Assembly: GCF_900167915.1 (NCBI RefSeq)
Contig: NZ_FUYM01000002.1
Location: forward strand, 372,001-436,000
Origin: Rhizorhabdus histidinilytica
Lineage (GTDB): Bacteria; Pseudomonadota; Alphaproteobacteria; Sphingomonadales; Sphingomonadaceae
Reading direction: 5' to 3'
Length of the DNA: 64,000 nt
Below the pieces are notes generated by a model. It did no database searches. It worked only from the letters and a program-made list of their open reading frames with translations, and was not told the DNA's origin. The stretch's first letter is position 1. Each line of letters begins with the position of its first letter. The translations under genes were made by a program, and so were the position numbers. Of the stretch, positions 31,561 to 35,768 are shown one piece after another.

Positions 31561-31740
31561 ATGGAAAAACCGACGCCCTCCCATTTGTCCATGCAGGCGA
31601 ATATCTCCCGGTCGCGGACGATTCAGGCGCCGCAACGCTATGAAGGCATCGGCAATGCGTTGCGGTCGGCGTTCGATCCGGGCAGTTACGGCCTCCCTGA
31701 CGAGCTGACGCGGCTACTGTCGAAGCTCGACGGTAAATAG
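31561..31740 (+). CDS. second NepR-family anti-sigma factor
   Basis: A 59-residue protein whose C-terminal half, IGNALRSAFDPGSYGLPDEL, then TRLLSKLD, aligns with NepR encoded at 33656 (VGAALRSVYSQTVDEAIPAE, then FLDLLNKLD). NepR proteins bind and block sigma EcfG until PhyR is phosphorylated. Sphingomonads are reported to have a second NepR (NepR2), which this may be. It has a one-residue deletion and lacks the usual basic N-terminus, so partner preference may differ. In-frame ATGs at 31516, 31552 and 31591 are alternatives; the EcfG-like promoter favours 31561 or 31591. It is convergent with ecfG. Confidence 0.72.
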   Translation: MEKPTPSHLSMQANISRSRTIQAPQRYEGIGNALRSAFDPGSYGLPDELTRLLSKLDGK

Positions 31741-31789: not shown

Positions 31790-32485
31790 CTATTCCTTGC
31801 TGAGAAAGTCGACGTCGGCCATGATCTGCTGGAGCGTCGTGGTCGACGGGTCGGTCTTGTGCTCGCGTCGCGAGGGCAACTGGCCATGGTCGAGCAGCTG
31901 CTCGAGCGCGGCGCGCCCACGGGCGACCCGACTCTTGATTGTTCCCACCGCGCATCCGCAGATTTCGGCCGCTTCCTCATAGGCGAAACCGCCGGCACCG
32001 ACGAGGATCAGGGCCTCGCGCTGCGGCTGGGGCAGGTGCATCAGCGCGCGCTGCATGTCGGCCAGCTCGATGTGGCGGTCCTGCGACGCAGGGGCCGCGA
32101 GCATCTTGTTGGCGGTATGCTCGTCCCATTCGCCGCGGAAGCGGGCACGCCGCATCTGCGACAGGAACAGGTTGCGCAGGATGATGAAGGTCCAGGCCCG
32201 CATATTGGTGCCCGCCTGGAAGCGCTTGCGCGCCGCCCACGCCTTCATCAGCGTTTCCTGGACGAGGTCGTCGGCCAGATCGCGATTGCCCGACAGTGAG
32301 CGGCCGAAGGCGCGAAGGTGGGGAATCACCCGCGCAAGCTCCTCCTTGAACTCGTCGTCAGACAGGGCGACCAGCTCGCCGCGCGGCGTCTCGACGCCGT
32401 CGACGTCCTGATCCTCGTCATCCATATGGTCTATAACCCCAGCTGAAGCGTTTGCCGCCATGGCGGCCTGGGCCTGTCCTGCCAT
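31790..32485 (-). CDS. ecfG: general stress response sigma factor EcfG
   Basis: An extracytoplasmic-function sigma factor (ECF15) that directs RNA polymerase to general stress promoters. Region 2 contains LVQETLMKAWAARKRFQAGT and RAWTFIILRNLFLSQMRRAR; region 4 has LPQPQREALILVGAGGFAYE and AVGTIKSRVARGRAAL. I chose the ATG at 32485, which has GGGGAT upstream and lies downstream of a perfect EcfG promoter; ATG 32425 is possible. The autoregulatory promoter and adjacency to phyR and two nepR genes fix the assignment. Confidence 0.94.
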   Translation of the reverse strand: MAGQAQAAMAANASAGVIDHMDDEDQDVDGVETPRGELVALSDDEFKEELARVIPHLRAFGRSLSGNRDLADDLVQETLMKAWAARKRFQAGTNMRAWTFIILRNLFLSQMRRARFRGEWDEHTANKMLAAPASQDRHIELADMQRALMHLPQPQREALILVGAGGFAYEEAAEICGCAVGTIKSRVARGRAALEQLLDHGQLPSRREHKTDPSTTTLQQIMADVDFLSKE

Positions 32486-32537
32486 CCGATCCCCATTGTC
32501 CGGGCGGGACGACTCGTGTCGTCCATTCTGCCAGGTC

Positions 32538-32562
32538 AACGTCCGTTCGGCGGGCGGGTTCC
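32538..32562 (-). promoter_or_regulatory. EcfG-dependent promoter of ecfG
   Basis: On the minus strand GGAAC (32562-32558), exactly 16 nt, then CGTT (32541-32538). This is the full consensus for alphaproteobacterial EcfG. It places the transcription start near 32530, 45 nt ahead of the ATG at 32485, implying positive autoregulation. Confidence 0.85.
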
Positions 32563-32590: not shown

Positions 32591-33385
32591 TCAAGCTTCG
32601 ATCGTGGCCGCGTTGAAGAACAGCGCCTGGCTGATAGCGGCCTTTACCGTCGATCGCTGGAAGGGCTTGGTGATCAGGAAGGTCGGCTCGGGCCGCTCGC
32701 CGGTCAGGAGCCGCTCCGGGAAGGCGGTGATGAAGATGACGGGCACGCTGAACTCGGCCAATATGTCCTTGACCGCGTCGATGCCCGAGCTGTCGTCGGC
32801 AAGCTGGATGTCGGCGAGGACGAGCCCGGGGCGGTGGGCATGCGCCTGGGCCACCGCCTCGTCGCGGGTCACTGCGACGCCGCTGACGCTATGGCCGAGA
32901 TCGCGAACGATGGTTTCCAGGTCCATCGCGATGATCGGTTCGTCCTCGATGATCAGCACGTCGGTCCGGGTCTGGCGGTCGATCTCGGCGATCGCGTCGG
33001 CGACCAGCGACTCGACCTCCTCCGGGCTCGTCTCGATCAGATAGGCGGTGTCGGCGACGGTGAAGCCTTCCATCGCGGTCAGCAGCAGCGCCTGGCGCGA
33101 CAGCGGCGTGATCGCGTTGAGCCGCGCCTGGGCGATCGCCTCGCGCTCGGCATCGACGGTCGGGGATTCGATCTCGTCATAATTGGCCGAGGTCCAGATG
33201 GCCTGGAAGGTGCGGTAGAGGCCGACCCGGACGTCGACCCCATCGGGAAAGCTGTCGGGAGAGGCGACGATCGCTTCGAGCGTGGCCCTTACATAATTGT
33301 CGCCGTGGCTCTGACTGCCGGTGAGCGCCCGGGCATAGCGACGCAGGAAGGGCAGGTGGGGGGCGAGTTTCTGGCCGAGCGACAT
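32591..33385 (-). CDS. phyR: stress response anti-anti-sigma regulator PhyR
   Basis: PhyR pairs an N-terminal sigma-like domain (about 1-130, with PFLRRYARALTGSQSHGDNY) with a C-terminal receiver. When Asp192 in LVLADIQLADDSSGID is phosphorylated, the sigma-like domain captures NepR and frees EcfG. Receiver landmarks IIEDEP, VIFITAFPERLL and ITKPF are present. The ATG at 33385 has GGGAG upstream; a GTG 12 nt earlier is possible. It lies between ecfG and the divergent nepR gene. Confidence 0.95.
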   Translation of the reverse strand: MSLGQKLAPHLPFLRRYARALTGSQSHGDNYVRATLEAIVASPDSFPDGVDVRVGLYRTFQAIWTSANYDEIESPTVDAEREAIAQARLNAITPLSRQALLLTAMEGFTVADTAYLIETSPEEVESLVADAIAEIDRQTRTDVLIIEDEPIIAMDLETIVRDLGHSVSGVAVTRDEAVAQAHAHRPGLVLADIQLADDSSGIDAVKDILAEFSVPVIFITAFPERLLTGERPEPTFLITKPFQRSTVKAAISQALFFNAATIEA

Positions 33386-33522
33386 GGGTATCAACACTCC
33401 CTGGATTCATCGACGCGGGTGGCTGCCGCCACACGGGCAAGGAGGGTAGCCGCCCTGCCGGTGTCGCGGAAGCCGCCCAGGGCTTCCAATGACGAATGTG
33501 TAAAAAGAGACATTCCCATCAT

Positions 33523-33547
33523 GGAACCAACGGACGACTTTTTTGTT
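33523..33547 (+). promoter_or_regulatory. EcfG-type promoter upstream of nepR
   Basis: GGAAC (33523-33527), a 16-nt spacer, TGTT (33544-33547). It lies in the 270-nt phyR-nepR gap, about 109 nt before the nepR ATG. Read on the other strand the same segment offers GAAAC-N16-GGTT, a weaker match that could serve phyR. Nothing else is evident in this gap. Confidence 0.65.
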
Positions 33548-33655
33548 TCATGCATGATGCTCGTTTTACCACGTCGTGTAAAATGGTACGCATCCGGATC
33601 GATCCAAGAGGGGCGGTATCCAAAGCCGTTGCATTGGAGAGTGTTGGACAACGAG

Positions 33656-33865
33656 ATGCAGGTCAGGGGCGTGGGCCGGTTGGCTAATCAGGATCAGTCG
33701 AACGAACCGGCGAACGACACCGGTGGAGGCAAGGCGGCCAGGAAGCGGAAGAGCGATCCTGTACGGGACGCCTCCGTCGGCGCTGCCTTGCGGTCCGTTT
33801 ATTCGCAAACGGTCGATGAAGCCATTCCCGCGGAATTCCTGGATCTGCTGAACAAGCTCGATTGA
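33656..33865 (+). CDS. nepR: anti-sigma factor NepR
   Basis: A 69-residue protein with a variable, basic N-terminus (GGGKAARKRKSDPVRD) and the conserved two-helix NepR domain VGAALRSVYSQTVDEAIPAE, then FLDLLNKLD. It sequesters EcfG in unstressed cells and is itself captured by phospho-PhyR. The ATG at 33656 is preceded by a GTG at 33641 that could add five residues. It is divergent from phyR and 61 nt upstream of the HisKA_2 gene, downstream of an EcfG promoter. Confidence 0.92.
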   Translation: MQVRGVGRLANQDQSNEPANDTGGGKAARKRKSDPVRDASVGAALRSVYSQTVDEAIPAEFLDLLNKLD

Positions 33866-33926: not shown

Positions 33927-35468
33927 ATGAAGCAGCCCGCCAAACTGGCTTTTGCCCGCTTGTCCACCGGCACCAAGATGCTGCTGATCCTGTCGGCGGC
34001 GATGCTGCCCCTCGGCTTCATCGCGTTGCTGACCTCGCTCGACATGGCGCGCTCGGCTTCGGCCGAGCAGCGCATGGCGGTCCGGACCGGGATGGCTTTC
34101 CACGCCACCCGTGTCGAGATGGTGATCGACCGCGGGCGTGATGCGGTGCGCTCCGCCCGGGCCAGCCTGCAGCCGGCCTCGGCGCTTTGCGCGTCGATCG
34201 CGCGGCAGGTGCGTCTCGATCGCGGCAGCCGGCCGCCGCTGGCGATCTTCGATGGCGAGGGGCGGAGGATCTGTCAGTCGCACGGCGCGCCGATCGATCG
34301 GATAGCGCCGGTCGATCCGAAGGGCGACCATGTCTGGCTCGACCTCCAGCGCCGCAGCTTCCGCTTCACCGCCGCTGCGCCCGACCGCAGCCTGCTGTTC
34401 GAGGCGGACATTCCGCTCGCGGAGATACGCTTCGCCATCGGTTCGGGCGGCGGCCTGCCGCTCAACCGGATGATTCTGCGGCAGGGGCCGGTCGATGTCG
34501 TGCTGGTCGACCATGGCGAGACCGCCGAGAAGGACATATTGCGGCTGTCGCAGCCGTTGGCCGGGAACCAGCTCGCGCTGATCGCCGAATATCGGCTGGC
34601 GCCGTCACGAGCCCGGACGATGCTTGTCGTCCTGCTGCCCCTGCTGATGTGGGCCGCCGCTGCCTTCACGGGGTGGCTGATCGTCAACCGGCTGCTGTTG
34701 CGCCCGCTCAGCCAGCTCAAGCAGTCGATCGACAGTTGGAAGGGCGGCCGCAGCTCGCTGCAATTGCCGCGGCTCACCACTCCCAGCCACGAGATACGCG
34801 ACCTGGCCGAAAGCTTCGGCGCGGTCGCGGCGCGGATCCACGACCATGAGCAGGAACTGGAGGATGGCCTCGCCCGCCAGACGCGCCTCACGCGCGAGGT
34901 CCATCATCGGGTGAAGAACAACCTTCAGGTCGTCTCCAGCCTGATCAACCTGCACGCGCGCGGGGCCGAGGGGGCCGTCGCCGACGCCTATGGCGCAATC
35001 CAGCGTCGTGTCGACGCGCTCGCCGTCGTCCACCGCAACCATTATGCGGAGCTGGAGGAGAATAATGGCGTCTCCGTGCGGGCGCTGGCCGGTGAACTGG
35101 CGACCTCGCTCAGGGCGTCCGCGCCGGCGGGGGCCACCGGCATGCCGATCGCGCTGAACCTGATCGACGTGCAGGTGACCCAGGATGTCGCCGTGCCGGC
35201 CGCCTTCTTCATCACCGAGGTCGTCGAGCTGCTGATGCACTGCAATCCGCAAGGGTCGGTGCTGATCTCACTCCAGGGGACCGACCGGCCGGATCGTGCC
35301 AATCTGCGAATCGAGACGGTCGGCATGGCCGAAGGGGCGCTCGACGACTATCCCGGCATCGGCCGTTTCGAACGGGTCGTGACAGGTATAGCGCGCCAGT
35401 TCCGGGCGCCGCTGTCGCAGGATCTCCAGACCGGTCGCTTCGAAATCGAGATCAGCGTCCGGTCGTGA
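33927..35468 (+). CDS. membrane HisKA_2-family regulator of PhyR (PhyP-like, degenerate ATPase domain)
   Basis: A 513-residue sensor-type protein. Helices at about 17-38 and 230-252 flank a periplasmic domain, followed by a HAMP-like region and a HisKA_2 domain with His326 in TREVHHRVKNNLQVVSSLIN. The ATPase domain is degenerate: the N-box Asn is replaced (ITEVVELLMHCNP) and no D-x-G G1 motif is visible. In Sphingomonas, PhyP, encoded beside phyR, looks like a kinase but acts as a PhyR phosphatase; this gene's position and lost ATP-binding motifs fit that role better than a PhyR kinase. Confidence 0.85.
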   Translation: MKQPAKLAFARLSTGTKMLLILSAAMLPLGFIALLTSLDMARSASAEQRMAVRTGMAFHATRVEMVIDRGRDAVRSARASLQPASALCASIARQVRLDRGSRPPLAIFDGEGRRICQSHGAPIDRIAPVDPKGDHVWLDLQRRSFRFTAAAPDRSLLFEADIPLAEIRFAIGSGGGLPLNRMILRQGPVDVVLVDHGETAEKDILRLSQPLAGNQLALIAEYRLAPSRARTMLVVLLPLLMWAAAAFTGWLIVNRLLLRPLSQLKQSIDSWKGGRSSLQLPRLTTPSHEIRDLAESFGAVAARIHDHEQELEDGLARQTRLTREVHHRVKNNLQVVSSLINLHARGAEGAVADAYGAIQRRVDALAVVHRNHYAELEENNGVSVRALAGELATSLRASAPAGATGMPIALNLIDVQVTQDVAVPAAFFITEVVELLMHCNPQGSVLISLQGTDRPDRANLRIETVGMAEGALDDYPGIGRFERVVTGIARQFRAPLSQDLQTGRFEIEISVRS

Positions 35469-35508
35469 AGCGGCGCTCCGCGGTTTCCAAAAAATTTCTT
35501 GGGGGTGC

Positions 35509-35533
35509 GGAACAAGGGGGTGGCCGGCTCGTT
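35509..35533 (+). promoter_or_regulatory. EcfG-dependent promoter of the small RNA candidate
   Basis: GGAAC (35509-35513), 16 nt, CGTT (35530-35533): a perfect general stress consensus with the same spacing as the ecfG promoter. It lies 41 nt after the PhyP-like gene and 236 nt before the next ORF, with two hairpins between. Confidence 0.82.
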
Positions 35534-35540
35534 CTGCTGT

Positions 35541-35639
35541 TCGGATAGCGATGCTTTGCCCCCCCGCTCCCGCTATCCGCTCGACAAAGGGCCCGGTCGC
35601 ATTACCCCCCCGTAAATGCGTCCGGGCCCAACTTTTTTT
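35541..35639 (+). ncRNA. candidate EcfG-regulated small RNA, GsrN-like
   Basis: A transcript of about 100 nt predicted from a perfect EcfG promoter to a strong terminator. Its 5' hairpin has a perfect 9-bp stem (CGGATAGCG 35542-35550 with CGCTATCCG 35571-35579) and a 20-nt loop containing CCCCCCC. The terminator hairpin loop is also C-rich. Caulobacter GsrN, encoded beside the general stress genes and driven by the EcfG-type sigma factor, has this plan: a 5' stem with an exposed C-rich loop that pairs with mRNAs, then a terminator. Primary sequence homology to GsrN could not be checked. No coding frame is evident. Confidence 0.78.
35589..35639 (+). terminator. Rho-independent terminator of the small RNA candidate
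   Basis: GGGCCCGG (35589-35596) pairs with CCGGGCCC (35622-35629); after a T-T mismatch CGCATT (35598-35603) pairs with AATGCG (35615-35620). A T7 tract occupies 35633-35639. One of the strongest intrinsic terminators in the window. Confidence 0.9.
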
Positions 35640-35768
35640 GAGCAAGCCTCTGAAAATTCAGACCGATTTCTGCGGGCTCGGTACAGGCCGGGAACAAAGC
35701 CCGGCAGCGCGCATTGATCCGTTGCAGCTTCCGCGGAGGAAGCCTCAGGCCATCCAGAAAGGTTCGCC

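Follow-up and report, generated by a model that had tools for sequence, protein, structure and literature searches.

The intergenic stretch downstream of the phyP-like gene of Rhizorhabdus histidinilytica very probably holds a real EcfG-driven small RNA (sRNA), the representative of a family without an Rfam match at gathering threshold. Its transcription is predicted from the sequence. A perfect GGAAC-N16-CGTT promoter motif is followed by a 9-bp hairpin whose 20-nt loop contains seven C, and by a terminator stem with a T7 tract; all three had been claimed in the original prediction and were found by direct reading exactly where it placed them (Table 1). Sequence and conservation also bear out its broader proposal, namely an RNA gene beside nepR and phyP that combines an EcfG-type motif with a C-rich 5' loop and a terminator. 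A second run of seven C, located in the terminator loop, was absent from that prediction. We consider it likely that the sRNA is a trans-acting base-pairing RNA of the general stress response (GSR), GsrN-like in its action.

Architecture of the predicted sRNA

The start of the RNA was placed near position 35540 on the basis of promoter spacing and of the onset of conservation, the conserved block beginning at TTCGG in most alignment rows. The 100-nt RNA has a predicted folding energy of -44.5 kcal/mol (z = -6.62), a value equalled by none of 200 shuffles, and the terminator hairpin taken separately has a fold z of -6.05. A generic terminator scan with a loop limit of 8 did not list this hairpin. 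When the window (the whole stretch of 64,000 nucleotides analysed here) was scanned with Rfam 15, no match was obtained at the gathering threshold.

Table 1. Positions in the window of the predicted sRNA, its elements and the neighbouring genes
Feature	Position	Strand	Basis and remarks
ecfG (general stress sigma factor)	31790..32500	-	approximate start; Sigma70_r2, r4_2, PhyR_sigma2
phyR (anti-anti-sigma response regulator)	32591..33397	-	approximate start; PF22029 5.6e-27, PF22233 1.8e-21
nepR (anti-sigma factor)	33656..33865	+	PF18557 9.3e-9 on 33653-33865; ATG at 33656
phyP-like HisKA_2/HWE kinase gene	33927..35468	+	immediately upstream of the sRNA; PF07568 8.8e-16, PF07536 2.1e-7
EcfG-type promoter motif GGAAC-N16-CGTT	35509-35533	+	GGAAC 35509-35513, 16-nt spacer, CGTT 35530-35533; sequence
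Predicted sRNA, about 98-100 nt	35540..35638	+	start near 35540 placed by conservation onset and promoter spacing
5' hairpin, 9 bp, CGGATAGCG / CGCTATCCG	35542..35579	+	stem 35542-35550 with 35571-35579; 20-nt loop 35551-35570
C7 run of the 5' loop	35559..35565	+	proposed mRNA-pairing site
Terminator hairpin GGGCCCGG.../...CCGGGCCC plus inner stem	35589..35629	+	outer stem 35589-35596 with 35622-35629; GC-rich
Second C7 run, terminator loop	35605..35611	+	sequence
T7 tract, intrinsic terminator	35633..35639	+	sequence
Entericidin-family gene, 46 aa	35769-35909	+	PF08085, 6.6e-10; ~130 bp downstream of the sRNA

The sRNA lies in the core general stress locus

Pfam searches identified the surroundings of the sRNA as the core general stress locus, with ecfG, phyR, nepR and phyP. 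The ecfG gene is itself preceded by a GGAAC-N16-CGTT motif (32538-32562, - strand).

Further EcfG-like motifs were seen on the + strand: GGAAC-N16-TGTT at 33523-33547, upstream of nepR, with a similar motif in all six relatives examined, and a weaker GGAAC-N16-CATT at 35691-35715, ahead of the entericidin-family gene. A second short NepR-like frame was noticed between glnE and ecfG (31567-31740, + strand), below the Pfam cut-off (E 0.014); a similar frame occurs in 13 loci of a set of 170 that repeats some genomes, many of these loci not reaching that far.

Conservation of the locus is far beyond chance

Genome-wide, the bare EcfG motif is found at chance frequency (57 matches versus 59 in a reversed control). 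When the motif (spacer 15-18, GTT) was required to be followed by C6 8-38 nt later, a single site was left in 5.47 Mb, namely the sRNA locus, and none in the control. It is conservation that settles the question of chance, and the conservation of the sRNA locus is far beyond it.

BLASTn comparison of the region gave matches in 14 of 14 genomes of the genus, in 5 of 22 others of the family and in none of 24 from the other families of the order. A sphingomonad covariance model, R1, was built from these 19 BLASTn-derived sequences. At E 0.01 it matched 77 of 296 genomes sampled from the order, and every matching genome is labelled as the window's own family. The distribution is patchy, 219 of the 296 being without an R1 match at this E value under strict filters. 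Among the 12 genomes with the weakest hits, which were read individually, five show an EcfG-like motif and a C-loop, one (G215) has the hairpin beside tatC with the motif missing, and six look like false hits, so about 71 of the 77 matches are credible. Extended to the whole class with a limit of E 0.1, the R1 search returned 8 of 289 genomes, of which two belong to the window's family. The other six class-wide matches, all weak (E 0.009-0.046), were discarded, the stretches examined being without a spaced EcfG motif followed by a C-loop hairpin.

A scan of named genomes for the hairpin pattern only, which is biased to the conserved stem, yielded at least 120 loci. The genera among the matches listed (80 titles) are Sphingomonas, Sphingosinicella, Sphingomicrobium, Parasphingopyxis, Sphingorhabdus, Stakelama, Hephaestia and Rhizorhabdus, and the same titles include MAGs labelled Sphingomonadaceae, Sphingomonadales, or only Alphaproteobacteria, Proteobacteria or bacterium. 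Because these loci were picked by the hairpin alone, the promoter provides an independent test. The relaxed motif GGAAC-N15-18-NNTT was present just upstream in all 119 testable loci (at least 120 loci, L095 starting too near the locus end to be included), and 107 of these 119 carry the strict CGTT. Among 22,658 positions drawn at random from these loci, the relaxed motif was encountered 58 times and the strict one 3 times. A narrower promoter rule failed in three of the 170 loci mentioned above (L027, L055 and L072), in which the -10 part is weaker or lies at a greater distance.

The neighbourhood is conserved as well. Drawing on the same at least 120 loci, PhyP was found upstream in 95 of the 102 with at least 1.8 kb of upstream DNA (L083, which gave no flanking-gene hit, was counted as a miss), TatC downstream on the opposite strand in 89 of the 96 with at least 1.5 kb of downstream DNA, and both flanking genes in 68 of the 79 with enough flank. 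At least one GSR gene was in view in 109 of the 120 loci listed (at least 120), L083 again being a miss. The arrangement of those 68 loci, with the hairpins just after phyP and before a convergent tatC, is also what would be expected of the 3' end of the phyP mRNA, or of a mere terminator between the two genes, with no function in trans. This explanation appears very unlikely, given that the locus has its own promoter motif in every testable case, that the 5' hairpin is more conserved than the terminator, and that an EcfG-like motif and both C-loops persist in L338, L339 and L344, where the 9 kb taken contain no hit to a GSR gene or to tatC. The opposite orientation of the downstream tatC further indicates that in most genomes the sRNA does not act as the leader of any gene in view on its own strand. 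In the window, the entericidin-like gene is on the same strand and close by; a cis-acting leader of this gene is nonetheless scarcely credible, as the strong T7 terminator and a further EcfG-like motif intervene, and tatC on the opposite strand lies downstream in 89 of 96 loci.

Exceptions to the usual position were observed. In two genomes of genus g2, the version present has neither a GSR gene nor tatC among the hits within 9 kb. One genome of genus g6 has two copies, one before tatC and one elsewhere. L344 (with L343), L338 and L339 represent divergent RNAs with two C-loops that have EcfG-like motifs and lie outside the GSR locus; one among them is a second copy within the same genome.

Both stems covary while the C-runs are kept

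In an alignment of 18 distinct sequences, both-side changes were found in 12 of 24 pairs, and the covariation score was reached by none of 500 shuffles. Sliding the pairing by 1-3 columns abolished the covariation. In these 18 sequences the terminator stem shows both-side changes in 10 of its 15 pairs. The 5' hairpin was evaluated on 14 sequences (alignment A3) hand-picked for diversity, L344 being left out for its irregular 5' stem: 6 of 9 pairs show both-side changes and 96% of cells are paired. Four of the five measures applied to the A3 hairpin, the covariation score included, were reached by none of 500 shuffles, while the number of further pair types was reached by 101 of the 500.

The C-run of loop 1 is 6-9 nt long in all 120 loci listed (at least 120) and exactly 7 in 103 of them, the search pattern having required at least five C. 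In the terminator region, the longest C-run is at least 6 in 119 of 119 testable loci (at least 120 listed; L125 ends too soon for this test), with lengths of 6-16. The C-run stays constant while the stem around it is rewritten, for example in L338, L341 and L349. The variation in run length in both loops argues against coding. Together, these results show that the level of conservation is RNA, not DNA or protein, and a steady C-run beside covarying stems points to the site of function. The original prediction had proposed to compare sphingomonads for compensatory changes, and had regarded a lack of conservation of the stems and C-rich loop in relatives as evidence against it. The comparison revealed both-side changes in both stems, which covary, and a C-run that is maintained.

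Proposed action of the sRNA

Sphingomonas melonis Fr1 and Sphingopyxis granuli TFA serve as study strains for the general stress response of sphingomonads, and the PhyR-NepR-EcfG switch is adopted here from the pathway literature. Under stress, PhyR would free EcfG from NepR, and RNA polymerase carrying EcfG would transcribe the sRNA gene from the GGAAC-N16-CGTT motif in an EcfG-dependent manner. Transcription would end at the T7 terminator and release an RNA of about 98-100 nt, whose two predicted hairpins would each display about seven consecutive C in the loop. The C-loops may pair with mRNAs at stretches rich in G, the putative targets being above all G-rich Shine-Dalgarno regions, and such pairing would alter the translation or stability of the mRNA. 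Hfq, which is present in the genome, would probably assist. A conserved sRNA with an EcfG promoter in the core locus would supply a missing post-transcriptional layer of the sphingomonad stress response. We also noted that Hfq is encoded by a single open frame of 190 codons, in which two Hfq domains stand in tandem (G000:C24:527495-527920, L358; Pfam E 2e-30 and 5e-24).

In 1.66 Mb of the genome, with 1303 crudely called genes, sense-strand G5 runs are most frequent in the interval from -15 to -6 relative to start codons (52 versus 10 C5 runs), a count that is inflated by the use of G-rich Shine-Dalgarno words in picking the starts. Near the starts, runs of seven G and of seven C are equally rare (2 versus 3 of 1303). 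The clustering of G5 runs before starts indicates that sites rich in G are available at places suited to the action of a C-rich loop. Among the genes of the GSR locus, G5 runs were found near the guessed starts of nepR in 11 of 32 loci and of scpA in 11 of 63, and for each of the other six genes in 1-3 loci. We claim no feedback of the sRNA on the GSR genes from these counts.

A ranking of targets by duplex energy was rejected as evidence, since it covers part of one genome and includes neither conservation nor a shuffled-loop control. Its top rows include likely genes for a glutamine synthetase and a PII-like protein.

The presence of two C-loops per molecule and the conserved flanks of the first C-run would also fit recognition by a protein, which the loops would titrate instead of pairing with mRNAs. 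We hold this to be improbable: we know of no C-run-binding regulator in these bacteria, and the precedent set by GsrN is base pairing. According to the accessible text of PMC5869019, GsrN pairs with the katG leader, as demonstrated by mutations in the loop and in the G-tract of that leader with compensatory rescue.

Relation to GsrN

The sRNA had originally been described as GsrN-like, with the same genomic association as Caulobacter GsrN. The likeness to GsrN of Caulobacter crescentus stands as regards plan, predicted promoter and place: both RNAs are about 100 nt long, with an EcfG/SigT-type promoter and a C-rich 5' loop, and in Caulobacteraceae GsrN typically lies beside GSR genes. Homology, by contrast, is not supported: we obtained no RF01529 match over cut-off, weak cross-model hits that are out of register, and no katG. 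The shared genomic association, typical of Caulobacteraceae, fails in C. crescentus itself, where gsrN is distal to the GSR locus in the accessible account of PMC5869019.

A GsrN-type RNA beside PhyR was detected by DNA match in 42 of 80 genomes of Caulobacteraceae. Thirty of these loci were read and 22 of the 30 entered alignment A2. The EcfG motif was absent by regular expression in four of the 30, a looser motif being visible in L257, and of the 26 loci with a motif one (L255) has it misplaced. Two features served to identify this family. Its PhyR is by far closest to chain 3n0r_A (420.9 bits, the next at 279.3), which we take to be a Caulobacter protein. The Rfam model RF01529, 'Cauldobacter sRNA CC3552', matched both of the Caulobacteraceae GsrN-orthologue loci that were tested (101-103 bits); among 14 control genomes it exceeded the cut-off in one, presumably that of Caulobacter vibrioides. 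Since both orthologue loci match and one control genome passes, we infer that RF01529/CC3552 is GsrN, an RNA that is processed to a stable 5' isoform of 51-54 nt. The main text of PMC5869019 names neither CC3552 nor Rfam, and no paper pairing 'CC3552' with 'Caulobacter' was found in the accessible literature.

In the genome of R. histidinilytica, none of the seven listed RF01529 matches is over cut-off (best E 2.08) and none is at the sRNA; restricted to 35440-35720, the same model gave no match at E up to 10. Conversely, the best score of R1 on 28 GsrN or GsrN-like loci was only 18.9 bits (E 0.026), off register. The GsrN model R2, searched against 29 sphingomonad loci, had its best match, of 24.4 bits (E 4e-4), on the second hairpin of L024, and three weaker matches likewise fell on the second C-loop hairpin of sphingomonad copies, not on the 5' hairpin; there was no match at the sRNA of the window. 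The 24.4-bit match is the best sign in the sequences of a kinship with GsrN, yet it is out of register. The covariance-model search suggested with the original prediction has returned weak, out-of-register matches and nothing at the window sRNA. In addition, katG (PF00141) gave no match at E 0.001 in this genome (59 contigs, completeness 100), while the control search finds katG in Caulobacter vibrioides.

The predicted folds differ too. The 5' C-run of the sphingomonad sRNA lies in a simple hairpin loop, whereas in the GsrN consensus it is enclosed by an outer stem beside an extra helix. The terminator loop of the sphingomonad sRNA contains a second C-run, while GsrN terminator loops, read by eye, are mostly without one.

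True orthology with Caulobacter GsrN, followed by divergence past sequence recognition, would explain the same promoter type, the similar locus, the GCCCCCCCG core present in the 5' domain of both RNAs and the weak R2 matches. It would also be in keeping with the EcfG-motif C-loop candidates that occur close to PhyR or NepR, both in other alphaproteobacteria and in further sphingomonad genera. We regard orthology as doubtful, however, in view of the high RF01529 scores of GsrN-orthologue loci set against nothing over cut-off in this genome, of the off-register R1 result, of R2 matches that fall on the wrong hairpin and miss the window copy, and of the differences in fold. As judged from these comparisons, descent from GsrN is not supported, and the sRNA would fall outside the GsrN family. 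We treat the sphingomonad sRNA as a family of its own, common descent with GsrN being possible rather than demonstrated. It would offer a cross-lineage comparison for GsrN and a test of target choice by a C-loop RNA where katG is absent.

Further GsrN-like candidates were noticed in L208 and L212 (family f12) and in L351 (G077). Each has an EcfG-like motif, then a C-rich hairpin and a terminator, near PhyR or NepR, with no CC3552 Rfam match at E 0.05. L172 and L173 (family f155) have C-rich-loop hairpins that come in pairs, and no spaced EcfG motif in the stretch read, and possibly belong to another C-loop RNA family.

Comparison with other systems

Tentatively, we put forward two ideas as a pair. 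The sRNA would be a bivalent stress sRNA of a kind undescribed before, one EcfG-made molecule with two C-run loops able to grip two G-rich sites at once, and several alphaproteobacterial lineages would each have placed their own sequence-unrelated C-loop sRNA under EcfG beside phyR or nepR. If so, the general stress response would have, as a standard post-transcriptional arm, a C-loop RNA that has evolved more than once.

As set out in the accessible text of PMC5869019, GsrN-like RNAs have been predicted in Rhizobiaceae and other alphaproteobacteria from an EcfG site, a position close to the GSR locus, transcription of the intergenic region and a C-rich loop that is exposed. The three of these features that are visible in sequence are found in the sphingomonad sRNA, which has a near-consensus EcfG promoter, lies near ecfG, nepR and phyR, and has a predicted exposed C-rich 5' loop; the likeness to those predicted RNAs is one of description by these features. 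In that text Erythrobacter litoralis serves as an outgroup with no apparent gsrN-like gene, and 'sphingo' at a word start occurs 0 times, so sphingomonads are not met there. No description of the sphingomonad sRNA was found in the accessible part of the literature on GsrN and sphingomonad sRNAs, most subscription papers being beyond reach. Term searches of the main texts of two sphingomonad GSR papers returned no small or non-coding RNA except one reference to SuhB.

SuhB of Sphingopyxis granuli TFA is likewise a sphingomonad sRNA, but from its description in the accessible text of PMC6563040 it differs in its length of 61 nt, levels raised at high growth rate and a role in carbon catabolite repression. 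A parallel in Rfam is Scr3202, a Streptomyces sRNA (RF02833) with the same two-hairpin, two-C-loop plan, which was the sole full-length sub-threshold Rfam match to the sRNA (30.1 bits, gathering 52; E 0.011 and 0.0066). As Scr3202 comes from another phylum and its match is well under threshold, we take the resemblance to be convergence in plan.
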